Positions 180-4,165 of a DNA stretch of 64,000 nucleotides are shown here, piece by piece. Position numbers and translations under genes: made by a program. The notes under the pieces are model-generated. The model did no database searches. It was not told the DNA's origin and saw only the letters and a program-made list of their open reading frames with translations. Numbering within the stretch: the stretch's first letter is position 1; each line of letters begins with the position of its first letter. Origin of the DNA: an uncultured Clostridia bacterium (GTDB taxonomy: Bacteria; Bacillota; Clostridia; Lachnospirales; CAG-274); contig CANRHR010000012.1 of NCBI GenBank assembly GCA_947630475.1, forward strand, positions 1 to 64,000. The letters are read 5' to 3'.

Positions 180-206
180 AAAAATCTTGGGGCTACCCGC
201 CCCAAG
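180..206 (-). terminator. Probable terminator of the DUF6033-like genes
   Basis: CTTGGGGC (186-193) pairs with GCCCCAAG (199-206) around a 5-base loop. Read on the minus strand the hairpin is followed by ATTTTTA, so it could end transcription coming from the minus-strand genes at 315-1777. The flanking stretch to about 236 is unusually GC-rich. 207-314 holds no gene that I can see. Confidence 0.5.
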
Positions 207-314: not shown

Positions 315-1004
315 TCAAATTTTAATGTCAAGACCTGCCATTTCAGTTATTGGTGTATTATCAAGATTTGATACTGCTTTAATTATTTTTTCCGTCAAAT
401 CCTGTATATTGCTGCCTTTAACCTTTATTTCATGTGATTGAAAAGCTTTGCTCTCTTCTTTTCTCTTTGCCCTCATTTTTGCAAGGTGTTCTTCCTGTTC
501 ACGCTTTGCCTGCTTCTTTTCTGTTTTTTTCTTTTCCGCAAGCTGTTCCTCTTTTTTCTTTTCCTGTAACTTCTTCAGCCAATCTGCCTGTCCGCTTTCT
601 TTACTCTTATTCGGGCTTTTTGATGTAGTATGAACTACCGCAGAAATATTTCCGTTATCGTCTATACTCCAAGTTTCGGAATAATACGTAAGTGTCCCTC
701 CGTTAGCTGCTGCCGCCCTCTGTGCGCTTTTATAGCCACGAGCGTAAATATCCTTAAATAAAGATAGATTTTCCTCCAGCTTTTTAGCTTCTTCAGGATC
801 ATTTGCACACTTTCCTAAATATGCGCCGGAAATGGACACATTGCCATTTTTTACACAATCATAGGTCTTTTGCAGATACAAATTGTAATCAGATGCTGTC
901 CGATTGGCAGGTGTCTGTTGCTCTTTAGCTTCCGTTTTATTAGCCGTTCTATTTTTCTGCATAGCATACGCGTTATAATTACTTTCAATCCCTGTTAATG
1001 CCAT
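315..1004 (-). CDS. DUF6033-like protein, copy 1
   Basis: A 229-residue soluble protein with no signal peptide or membrane segment. The start at 1004 is chosen because GGAGG (1013-1017) lies 8 bases upstream; an ATG at 1046 in the same frame lacks a good site. The N-terminal half has a SDYNLYLQKTYD stretch and a YLGKCANDPEEAKKLEENL block. Next comes a lysine/glutamate-rich, probably coiled-coil segment of about 50 residues. The C-terminus (HEIKVKGSNIQDLTEKI) is almost identical to that of the gene upstream at 1073-1777. The layout fits the Firmicutes family I remember as DUF6033, whose function is unknown; the family name is tentative. It probably shares a transcript with its paralog, 68 bases upstream. 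Confidence 0.75.
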   Translation of the reverse strand: MALTGIESNYNAYAMQKNRTANKTEAKEQQTPANRTASDYNLYLQKTYDCVKNGNVSISGAYLGKCANDPEEAKKLEENLSLFKDIYARGYKSAQRAAAANGGTLTYYSETWSIDDNGNISAVVHTTSKSPNKSKESGQADWLKKLQEKKKEEQLAEKKKTEKKQAKREQEEHLAKMRAKRKEESKAFQSHEIKVKGSNIQDLTEKIIKAVSNLDNTPITEMAGLDIKI

Positions 1005-1072: not shown

Positions 1073-1777
1073 TCAAATTTTAAAGTCAAGACCTGCTGTT
1101 TCAGCTATTGATGTATTATTAAGATTTGATACTGCTTCAATCATTTTTTCCGTTAAATCCTGTATGTTGCTGCCTTTAACCTTTATTTCATGTGATTGAA
1201 GAGCTTCGCTCTCTTCTTTTCTCTTTGCACTCATTTTTGCAAGGCGTTTTTCATTTTCTTTTTTATCGGCTTTTTTCTTTTCAAGTTTTTCTAATTTTTC
1301 TTTTTGCTCTTTTGCTTTTCGTTTAGCATTTTCTCTGGCAATTCTTCCGTCAGGATCATTTGTACCTGAACTAATCATCGTAATATTTCCATTTGAATCT
1401 ATTTCAACTGAAAGGCTCGTAAGAGTTCCCAAAGAATGAGATGTCGCATAAGCTACGCAATCCGGAATAGCAGCAAGATTTTCTTCTAAATATTTAGCTT
1501 TTTCCGGATCATTCATACACTTTTTTAAAAATGCGCTCGATACCGATACAGTTGTCGGAACACCCTCCATGGAGGTAGTACCTGTATTCATATAGCTGTA
1601 TTTATCCTGTAAATATCTGGAATAATCATTTACATTGCTGTATCCTGTATTAATTTGCTCTGTTCTTGTTTTTCCGGGAGTTGAAGTTTTCAACTCAACC
1701 GTACTTGTTATAACATTACTTTTTTTTGCACTTCCTGCCGTATAATTACTGTAATTGTTTATAATTTCCATTGACAT
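1073..1777 (-). CDS. DUF6033-like protein, copy 2
   Basis: A 234-residue paralog of the 315-1004 gene with the same plan: YSRYLQDKYSYM near the N-terminus, then VSSAFLKKCMNDPEKAKYLEENLA, a Lys/Glu-rich helix, and the C-terminal block SHEIKVKGSNIQDLTEKM. The last 50 or so residues are nearly identical between copies while the middle has diverged. GGGGG lies about 8 bases before the ATG. The gene lies directly behind the sensor kinase gene and has a LytTR-like double repeat (1859-1888) about 80 bases ahead of its start, so it is probably a target of the neighbouring regulator. Its biochemical role is unknown. Confidence 0.75.
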   Translation of the reverse strand: MSMEIINNYSNYTAGSAKKSNVITSTVELKTSTPGKTRTEQINTGYSNVNDYSRYLQDKYSYMNTGTTSMEGVPTTVSVSSAFLKKCMNDPEKAKYLEENLAAIPDCVAYATSHSLGTLTSLSVEIDSNGNITMISSGTNDPDGRIARENAKRKAKEQKEKLEKLEKKKADKKENEKRLAKMSAKRKEESEALQSHEIKVKGSNIQDLTEKMIEAVSNLNNTSIAETAGLDFKI

Positions 1778-1858
1778 AATATCATACCCCCAAAAATAAA
1801 TCTAAATTAACAGTTCCTACTTTTTTTATCGTATTTTCTGCCATAAAATTCATAAACA

Positions 1859-1888
1859 TGGTGTGAATTACGGCATTTTTGGTGTGAA
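1859..1888 (-). promoter_or_regulatory. LytTR-type double repeat upstream of the DUF6033-like genes
   Basis: On the minus strand TTCACACCA (1888-1880) is repeated exactly at 1867-1859 after a 12-base spacer. Two 9-bp direct repeats 12 bp apart is the binding-site geometry known for AgrA/ComE LytTR regulators. The first repeat encodes the last residues of the sensor kinase (FTP); the second lies just past its stop. A TACGAT sequence 25 bases downstream could be a -10. A closely related pair stands before the regulator gene itself (4136-4165). Binding by this regulator is inferred. Confidence 0.65.
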
Positions 1889-3316
1889 TGTCTTTTCATA
1901 CATCATAACAGTCAAAATAAAATTTTTTCCTTTCTCTGTTTCTTTCACTGTAATGTCAATATCCCCCTTGTATTTTCTTGCGCATCTCTGTATGTTCTCC
2001 ATTCCGAAACCGTGAAGCCGCCTGTCCTCTTTGCTGCTGACCGGCAATCCTGTTTCCGTATCTATAATCAGGATGTCTTCAAAATCATTCTCAACCTCAA
2101 TAAAAAACAGGCTGCCTTTTTGATAAGACCGCACGATGATTTTTTTGTTTCCTGCTGTTTTTCGGGCAGCTTCAACTGCGTTTTCCAGTGCATTATTTAA
2201 CACAATCCCTATATCATATACATCTATCTGATTTTTATCGGGATAAATAAAATCCGATATAAAATTGATGTTTTGTTTCTCCGCTTCCTGCTTTTTTTGA
2301 TGAAGAATCACATCAATAATAGGATTTCCCGTCTGATAATAAAAGTCAAGTCTTCCTACTGTTTCTTCCATCTTTCCAATGTAACTGTCAAGCTCTTGCC
2401 GCTCTTTACCGTCTGTTCTGCCTACAACTGCCGCTATGCTTTCCAAGTGGCTTTTCATATCGTGCTTTAATCCTCTCATATCGGCATAAATATCCTGTAT
2501 CTCTTTAATTTCACGCTGCATCTGCACCATCTGGTTTTCCAGTATAGAGTGTTTCCGTTCTTCTTCATTAAGCTGTACCATTTTTTGAAAAAGAATCACG
2601 GAAGATACATTAACCCCCAACAGCAAAATACAGATAAGCGGCACCCAAAACAGTGTAGCGGGAACCCTGTCAAACATCATAGAGGTCACTTCATTTTCTG
2701 CCGGCAGTATCATCATTCGCAGCGTAATAGCAATACACAATGCTGCAATACTTGGAAGAATTAAAAACGCATTTTCATGTTTTTGAAGATAATAATCCTT
2801 TTTTACAAATTTAGTTGCCAAAACAGTAAAATATACAATAATCATTAATGCATACAATAAAATAATCATTGTTCCTAATATTCCATTGGAAACTGCTGTC
2901 CAGCTTTTTGCTTTATCTATGCTGTTAATTACTTCTTTTTCCAAAAAAATATAAGAAATTTTCCAACGCACATAATTTAAACCGATAGATAAAACTATTA
3001 TAATATAAATAATAATCTCTTTTCCGCCTATAAAACTGACTGCTACAAAAAACTGTTTGGATAAATTTTTTTGATATAAAACCATTTGCAAAAACAGTAC
3101 TATAACCATATCGACAGCAACCTTTAAAATATTGCCAAAAGGATATATGCCGCCGACCAATTTCCCTATCAGGCTTTTAAAAACAAAATAAAGAAACGCC
3201 CAAGCAATCAGGGCGGTTTTTCTTGATGTTTTGGCTTTCAGGAATTTATCTGCATAAATGCTTCCTGCTATACTGTTTATAAAATAAAGACCAAAAGAAA
3301 GCCCCCATTCAAACAT
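1868..3316 (-). CDS. AgrC-like sensor histidine kinase
   Basis: About 482 residues. The first 250 or so form six or more membrane helices. A long helix then leads into GLKHDMKSHLESI, which carries the phospho-accepting His, as in AgrC/ComD-type (HPK10) kinases. The ATPase part has the N-box NNALENAVEAAR and GFGMENIQ as the G-box. The start at 3316 is chosen because GGGGG lies 8 bases upstream; upstream start codons lie deep inside the regulator gene. It overlaps the regulator stop by 8 bases, so translation is probably coupled. No AgrB/AgrD peptide-signal genes are nearby, so the ligand is unknown. It should phosphorylate the regulator encoded just upstream. Confidence 0.88.
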   Translation of the reverse strand: MFEWGLSFGLYFINSIAGSIYADKFLKAKTSRKTALIAWAFLYFVFKSLIGKLVGGIYPFGNILKVAVDMVIVLFLQMVLYQKNLSKQFFVAVSFIGGKEIIIYIIIVLSIGLNYVRWKISYIFLEKEVINSIDKAKSWTAVSNGILGTMIILLYALMIIVYFTVLATKFVKKDYYLQKHENAFLILPSIAALCIAITLRMMILPAENEVTSMMFDRVPATLFWVPLICILLLGVNVSSVILFQKMVQLNEEERKHSILENQMVQMQREIKEIQDIYADMRGLKHDMKSHLESIAAVVGRTDGKERQELDSYIGKMEETVGRLDFYYQTGNPIIDVILHQKKQEAEKQNINFISDFIYPDKNQIDVYDIGIVLNNALENAVEAARKTAGNKKIIVRSYQKGSLFFIEVENDFEDILIIDTETGLPVSSKEDRRLHGFGMENIQRCARKYKGDIDITVKETEKGKNFILTVMMYEKTFTPKMP

Positions 3317-4034
3317 TGACAATACCCCCGTTTTTAGCATAATCCATATACCGCTTAACAAAATCGGCATATTTTTTATGAGCAAGGATCAGCCTATCCC
3401 TATTAACAACCTCAATCATATCTGTACCATAGGAAACTATCTTTTCCATATTCACAAGGTAGCATCTGTGGCAGCGGTAAAAACTGCCGCCTGCCGCCCT
3501 TTCCCATTCTTCCATTTTTCCATAAGTTTCCATAATGCCCGTTTTTGTGTGAATAATAACCTTTTTATTTGCGCTTTCAATGTAAAAAATATCTTTTAAA
3601 TACAATTTTGTCTGCACACCGGCATTTTTAACAAAAATATATTGTTTTCCATGCTCCTGCATTGCATATGCCTCTTTCCATGCCCGCCCGAAAACAGAAG
3701 CAAATTTTTCTTTATTCAGCGGTTTTACCAAGTATTGAAATGCCGAAACATCAAATGCATCATAAACATACTTGTCATAACCTGTTACAAAAATGATAAT
3801 ATTCTTTAATTTTCCGGCTTTCTCCTGATACTTTCTAATCTGCCTTGCCACATCAAGTCCTGATACTTCTTTCATTTCCACATCAAGAAAAGTAATATCA
3901 AAATCTCCATTAGCCTTCAATATTTCTTCTCCGCTTGCAAAGGTTGTAATCTCTGCGCCGGATTCCTGCTCTCTTATCAGTGAAACAATATGCTCCCTTG
4001 CCATTTTATCATCATCGCATACTGCAATCTTCAT
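3309..4034 (-). CDS. LytTR-family response regulator (AgrA-like)
   Basis: A 241-residue protein. Residues 1-120 are a CheY-like receiver: MKIAVCDDD gives the acidic pocket, TFLDVEM the phosphorylated Asp, and FVTGYDKY and YLVKPL the switch and Lys. The rest is a LytTR DNA-binding domain (IFYIESANKKVIIHT, FYRCHRCYLVN). The start at 4034 is chosen because AGGAAG lies upstream and the receiver begins there; a longer frame to 4079 adds only unrelated residues. First gene of a regulator-kinase operon, the usual order for agr/com-type pairs. A LytTR-like double repeat about 100 bases upstream suggests self-activation. Confidence 0.9.
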   Translation of the reverse strand: MKIAVCDDDKMAREHIVSLIREQESGAEITTFASGEEILKANGDFDITFLDVEMKEVSGLDVARQIRKYQEKAGKLKNIIIFVTGYDKYVYDAFDVSAFQYLVKPLNKEKFASVFGRAWKEAYAMQEHGKQYIFVKNAGVQTKLYLKDIFYIESANKKVIIHTKTGIMETYGKMEEWERAAGGSFYRCHRCYLVNMEKIVSYGTDMIEVVNRDRLILAHKKYADFVKRYMDYAKNGGIVNV

Positions 4035-4135
4035 AAATTCAAACTTCCTTTCTCTTGAACATTTTGTTTCTTTATCCAAAAAAGATTTTTATTTGTTATA
4101 TATATCGGCAAATTTTAAGGCGATTGGGGAAAATA

Positions 4136-4165
4136 TAGCGTGAATTGCTAAATTTTTGGTGTGAA
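4136..4165 (-). promoter_or_regulatory. LytTR-type double repeat upstream of the regulator operon
   Basis: On the minus strand TTCACACCA (4165-4157) and TTCACGCTA (4144-4136) are separated by exactly 12 bases, matching the pair at 1859-1888 in sequence, spacing and orientation. An AT-rich TATATA stretch that could serve as -10 follows about 30 bases downstream. This suggests the response regulator controls its own operon. The rest of 4166-4300 shows no gene. Confidence 0.62.

Follow-up and report, generated by a model that had tools for sequence, protein, structure and literature searches.

Introduction

Two-component systems of the AgrC/AgrA type and the related LytTR systems (AgrA, ComE, SilA) combine a membrane GHKL kinase with a REC-LytTR response regulator, use 9-bp direct repeats with a 12-bp spacer upstream of the promoter, and are autoregulated. 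LytTR regulators activate from 9-12-9 repeats located 4-11 bp upstream of the -35 element (PMC6193735), and the repeats of AgrA are centred near -60 (PMC4227749). In the HdrRM/BrsRM LytTR Regulatory Systems, a LytTR regulator is paired with a membrane protein, and the promoters are written as sigma-70 (PMC6193735). The SigD/FliA regulon of Bacillus, which contains flagellin, chemoreceptor and autolysin genes, has the consensus TAAA-N15-GCCGATAT (PMC5200910). In C. difficile, an agrA mutant showed lower expression of flagellar genes, fliA included, according to the passages of PMC3754575 consulted, in which no sigma-28 promoter with a LytTR site was seen.

Here, we analysed a stretch of 64,000 nucleotides from an uncultured Clostridia bacterium (the window), for which a first-pass annotation had proposed an operator pair shared by an orphan Agr-like system and two DUF6033-like genes. 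The cassette resembles the AgrC/AgrA-type systems in its kinase and regulator, in the length, spacing and upstream position of its repeats and, by prediction, in autoregulation. However, the genome lacks AgrB, the -10 elements are sigma-28-type instead of sigma-70-type, the output is DUF6033, and the half-sites diverge between clades. Compared with HdrRM/BrsRM, the cassette has a kinase and a receiver domain, and its promoters look sigma-28-type. With the Bacillus SigD/FliA regulon it shares a GCCGATAT-like -10, and at DUF6033 A a putative, TAAA-like -35 (TGAA) precedes the -10 with N15, but here an extra LytTR operator abuts a degraded -35, and DUF6033 is not described as a member of that regulon in the literature found. 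As in the C. difficile agr locus, a LytTR regulator is tied to flagellar gene expression; compared with the agrA mutant effect described there, the difference is a LytTR site on an apparently FliA-dependent promoter.

Results and discussion

Organization of the cassette

On the minus strand, the cassette runs from operator 1 through the response regulator, the kinase, operator 2, DUF6033 A and DUF6033 B to a terminator-like hairpin (Table 1; start codons were assigned by inspection), and the start of the kinase gene overlaps the stop of the regulator gene. With a REC-LytTR regulator beside a membrane GHKL kinase, and 9-bp repeats with a ~12-bp spacer upstream of the target promoters, it has the make-up of a LytTR-type two-component system. 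An HdrRM-type LytTR regulatory system, in which a kinase-less regulator is paired with a membrane inhibitor protein, was rejected because the receiver domain and the GHKL kinase are present. Membership in Agr quorum sensing was also rejected because AgrB is missing: no PF04647 match was obtained at E <= 0.001 in the genome, which is 99.6% complete, in line with the orphan system of the first-pass annotation. The genome encodes two LytTR proteins, and its only DUF6033 genes are DUF6033 A and B, both of which score above the curated Pfam cut-off and can be called DUF6033 outright. A scan of the upstream region found no repeat or operator 5' of DUF6033 B, which is probably co-transcribed.

Table 1 Features of the cassette and of an RNA element in Lachnospiraceae loci
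Feature	Position	Strand	Basis and remarks
Operator 1, direct repeat TTCACACCA-N12-TTCACGCTA	4136..4165	-	5' of regulator gene; sequence and genome search
Operator 2, direct repeat TTCACACCA-N12-TTCACACCA	1859..1888	-	Spans kinase stop codon, 5' of DUF6033 A
Putative sigma-28-type -10 GCCGATAT, regulator promoter	4102..4109	-	Sequence; position conserved in related cassettes
Putative sigma-28-type promoter TGAA-N15-TACGATAA of DUF6033 A	1826..1852 (-35 1852-1849, -10 1833-1826)	-	Sequence; position conserved in related cassettes
Response regulator, REC and LytTR domains	3309..4034	-	Pfam PF00072 and PF04397
Sensor kinase, 482 aa, about six transmembrane segments, GHKL domain	1868..3316	-	Pfam PF14501; hydropathy
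DUF6033 A	1073..1777	-	Pfam PF19498, 31.9 bits (cut-off 25)
DUF6033 B	315..1004	-	Pfam PF19498, 41.3 bits (cut-off 25)
Terminator-like hairpin CTTGGGGCGGGTAGCCCCAAG, then T-rich tail	186..206	-	Pattern scan
Two-hairpin RNA element	L016:5911-5979, L037:2043-2111, L041:4347-4415, L073:4290-4358, others		Alignment

Operator pairs and promoter elements

The two operators have half-sites of 9 bp, a spacer of 12 bp and identical orientation. Read on the minus strand, operator 1 (4165..4136) is TTCACACCA-AAAATTTAGCAA-TTCACGCTA with 2 mismatches and operator 2 (1888..1859) is TTCACACCA-AAAATGCCGTAA-TTCACACCA with 0 mismatches. Operator 1 lies between genes. In operator 2, the first half-site (at 1888) is coding and belongs to the C-terminus of the kinase (TTC ACA CCA AAA ATG CCG TAA, FTPKMP-stop), and the second follows immediately 3' of the stop codon. 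In dinucleotide-shuffled windows, repeat-pair matches averaged 0.05, and two matches occurred in 0 of 100 shuffles. In the whole genome (2,181,967 bp), operators 1 and 2 are the sole two matches of the repeat pair at <=3 mismatches, and a reversed-pattern control gave 0 matches over the same length. The exact 12-base gap and equal orientation reported in the first-pass annotation are therefore borne out by the sequence, the shuffles and the genome search, and its placement of one pair before the regulator operon and the other before the DUF6033 genes, half of it in the kinase stop region, agrees with the positions found here. Its comparison with AgrA/ComE sites also fits the 9-12-9 direct repeats of LytTR operators (PMC6193735), and its expectation of a small regulon is matched by the two sites in the genome.

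What the present analysis adds is a sigma-28-type -10 at a fixed distance, a strict co-occurrence of DUF6033 with flagella, and clade-specific half-sites. In the window, CGATA lies 27-28 nt downstream of each repeat pair in a sigma-28/SigD -10 context, and both GCCGATAT and TACGATAA are close to the FliA-type -10 GCCGATAT. The regulator promoter has no recognisable -35. These promoters appear to be read by FliA (sigma-28/SigD) RNA polymerase, because the -10 is (G/T)(C/A)CGATA(T/A) and the -35 is weak (TGAA) or absent. The same arrangement is found in promoters of the window's clade, where CGATA stands at a near-constant distance 3' of the repeats, mostly inside GCCGATAT, GACGATAT, TACGATAA or GGCGATAA. 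Among non-redundant regulator promoters, 23 of 32 have a repeat of 21-bp period with CGATA 24-33 nt later (shuffles: mean 0.055, max 1). When adjacent periods were used, 0-3 of the 32 promoters had the composite, and control words in place of CGATA gave 0-1, except TATAA (7), which overlaps CGATATAA. At DUF6033 promoters, the composite was found in 10 of 46 (shuffle mean 0.08). A lower share would be expected here if transcription from the regulator promoter continues into many of the DUF6033 genes.

A genome-wide search for TAAA-N14-16-NCCGATA was uninformative, with 70 matches and 64 for the control, so that the bare sigma-28 pattern shows no enrichment, and the flagellin promoters of the genome match the SigD consensus only partially, e.g. 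TAAG-N14-GACGATAT. A sigma-70 promoter scan around both operators gave no excess over shuffles. Because the flagellin matches are partial and the bare pattern is unenriched, the case for sigma-28 rests on three observations: the fixed -10 position, the joint presence of DUF6033 and FliA, and the DUF6033 promoters that lack repeats.

Co-occurrence of DUF6033 with flagella

The window genome encodes FliA above the curated cut-off (TIGR02479) in a fla/che operon together with FlhA, FlhB, FliR, FlhF, FlgG, CheD and CheY, and it has eight flagellin genes. Among 393 genomes of the order, DUF6033 was found in 123 (E <= 0.001; 116 above the curated cut-off), FliA in 245 and FlhA in 244. FliA and FlhA were both present in all 123 DUF6033 genomes, and DUF6033 was found in 0 of 148 FliA-negative genomes (Fisher p = 6e-33 for DUF6033 and FliA, a value that ignores shared ancestry). 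The carriers are spread over nine families. Within the family of the window genome, DUF6033 is present in just 5 of 48 genomes, each of which also has FliA, a distribution that points to patchy gain or loss. The nearest relatives of DUF6033 A come from Lachnospiraceae bins named Lapin, and the cassette may have been transferred from one family to another.

We also checked 40 canonical DUF6033 genes from other genomes, which were taken as best family matches and not picked by cassette. A sigma-28-like promoter was found with >=10 of 12 matches in 31 of these genes and with >=11 of 12 in 15, compared with 8% and 0.8% in shuffles. Only one of the 40 promoters had a 21-bp repeat, apparently in coding sequence, and the repeat-free promoters combined the -10 seen in the cassettes with a TAAA-like -35. 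Because canonical DUF6033 genes have sigma-28-like promoters without repeats, control by sigma-28 seems to go with the family itself, and the LytTR operator seems to have been added in these cassettes.

Divergence of operators among related cassettes

A scan with DUF6033 A yielded 78 loci, mostly from Lachnospiraceae; they were gathered using one DUF6033 protein and are weighted to gut Lachnospiraceae metagenome bins. The order regulator-kinase-DUF6033 is kept in most of them. The TTCAC-type repeat gave 19 matches at the 12-bp spacer versus 0-3 at each other spacer from 6 to 18. Within the window's regulator clade, the paired sites precede both the regulator gene and a DUF6033 gene in 12 cassettes, the window's included, and because they recur in this way, the loss of the motif upstream of orthologous genes, which the first-pass annotation had named as evidence against its proposal, is not seen in this clade. 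The literal motif given there holds for this clade, but other clades of the cassette use other half-sites. The two sites within one cassette are slightly more alike than sites of different cassettes (14.0 vs 13.3 of 18 positions, p = 0.011).

When 39 regulator promoters were grouped by LytTR identity, seven clusters were obtained, with half-sites such as TTCACRCC (window clade), TCCAGTTGC, TCCAGTCAC, ATTCACGCT or ATTCACGTA, TTCRTTACA, TGCCTTTCG, and TTCACTRCA. The 21-bp period and the position of CGATA are kept in all clusters, and this layout is common to at least seven operator classes. The similarity between operators goes along with the identity between LytTR domains (r = 0.86, uncorrected for ancestry; the highest value among 2000 permutations was 0.21). 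This correlation between sequences shows joint divergence and is not evidence of binding, because the common descent of locus and regulator plays a part in it. Cassettes of different classes can coexist in one genome, e.g. L032. In three loci, L034, L063 and L077 (near 5990, 5990 and 5112), DUF6033 genes have repeat and CGATA promoters with no regulator gene within the locus, which suggests that they are targets controlled in trans.

Proposed mechanism and alternatives

We think it likely that the window carries a stand-alone, positively autoregulated LytTR two-component cassette that gates sigma-28 promoters and works as an AND gate on flagellar assembly and the kinase signal. The membrane GHKL kinase would phosphorylate the REC-LytTR regulator, and the phosphorylated regulator would bind the 9-12-9 direct repeats beside the -35 region of the two promoters and help FliA-RNA polymerase where the -35 is weak or missing. 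One promoter would drive the regulator and kinase genes, with operator 1 providing positive feedback, and the other would drive the DUF6033 genes. Because the LytTR operators adjoin sigma-28-type promoters, DUF6033 output would require free FliA plus an active kinase. In model flagellar systems, FliA is freed after hook completion. If the combination of LytTR and FliA is true, it would couple Agr-like signalling directly to the flagellar assembly checkpoint, whereas the LytTR operon promoters in the literature found are written as sigma-70. In addition, a role open to test can be proposed for DUF6033, a family without a phenotype: expression is predicted to be fliA-dependent, and the proteins are expected to function in motility or surface behaviour of gut Lachnospiraceae and related bacteria. 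The operators that diverge with their regulators are also a natural set for the study of change in LytTR DNA specificity.

The repeats could instead be AgrA/ComE-type operators at sigma-70 promoters, in which case CGATA would be a chance feature or would belong to the operator, and the association with flagella would reflect lineage only. This would agree with the LytTR operon promoters as written in PMC6193735 and with the unenriched bare sigma-28 pattern in the genome. We regard it as unlikely, since the sigma-70 scan found no excess at these sites, CGATA stays in place even between operator classes whose half-sites are unrelated, repeat-free DUF6033 genes share the -10 with a TAAA-like -35, and the DUF6033 carriers of nine families are all FliA-positive. 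From these observations, we infer sigma-28 use at the window promoters.

The direction of control and the operator nature of the repeats also have to be considered. A regulator that sits upstream of the sigma-28 promoters as a repressor, and blocks or bends the DNA until it is dephosphorylated, has a precedent in the repression of bsaA by AgrA, which acts from a site downstream of the bsaA promoter (PMC4227749). In the window, however, the -35 downstream of the repeats is weak or missing, and each repeat is centred ~54-55 bp before the presumed start site, near the position of AgrA activation (PMC4227749) and of the repeats of positively acting LytTR operons (PMC6193735); repression is accordingly improbable, and activation is the direction we infer. 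It is harder still to believe that the repeats are not operators and were kept by the coding of the kinase C-terminus or because the region was recently duplicated. Operator 2 does have a coding first half-site, and linkers inside one cassette can be alike, but its second half-site lies beyond the stop codon, operator 1 is intergenic, and classes whose half-sites are unrelated still have the 21-bp period with CGATA.

DUF6033 proteins and neighbouring elements

The literature search found no paper on DUF6033. The predicted model has a mean pLDDT of 76 with disordered ends, and hydropathy analysis indicated no transmembrane segment and no signal peptide. Foldseek with this model gave no match at E <= 0.001, and a likeness to the ClpX/ClpB small C-terminal domain (Z 5.6, 79 aligned, rmsd 3.0) was too weak to be taken as a relationship, so that the model has no clear relative among solved structures. 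Under the AND-gate cassette proposed above, DUF6033 proteins presumably act in or with the flagellum. A bolder and rather doubtful extension is that they are unrecognised late flagellar proteins exported via the flagellar gate, that what the kinases detect is itself a product of this class, and that several insulated LytTR cassettes form a flagellum-tied recognition system. Export is suggested because DUF6033 seems to be sigma-28-driven, has a disordered N-terminus and no signal peptide, and occurs only in genomes with FliA and FlhA; it is consistent with the data, but it is a guess.

Many cassettes carry a second paralogous type ('MSILGVNGALAGAYQYANRTQK' or 'MNLGLSNIANMYYKRYANQQNK') beside DUF6033 A, e.g. 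at L016:5181-5909, L037:2139-2867 and L047:9573-10307, which accounts for the 0.7-0.9-kb gap seen 3' of the kinase gene at several loci. In Lachnospiraceae loci, tandem DUF6033-like and 'MNVNGIG' genes have, shortly 5' of their start codons, a conserved RNA element of ~65 nt with two hairpins, the first with the loop GGACTTAYY and the second with GAAYGACAG; it occurs in up to several copies per locus. Rfam gave no match in the five loci scanned, and compensatory changes are seen in 7 of 13 pairs of the element.
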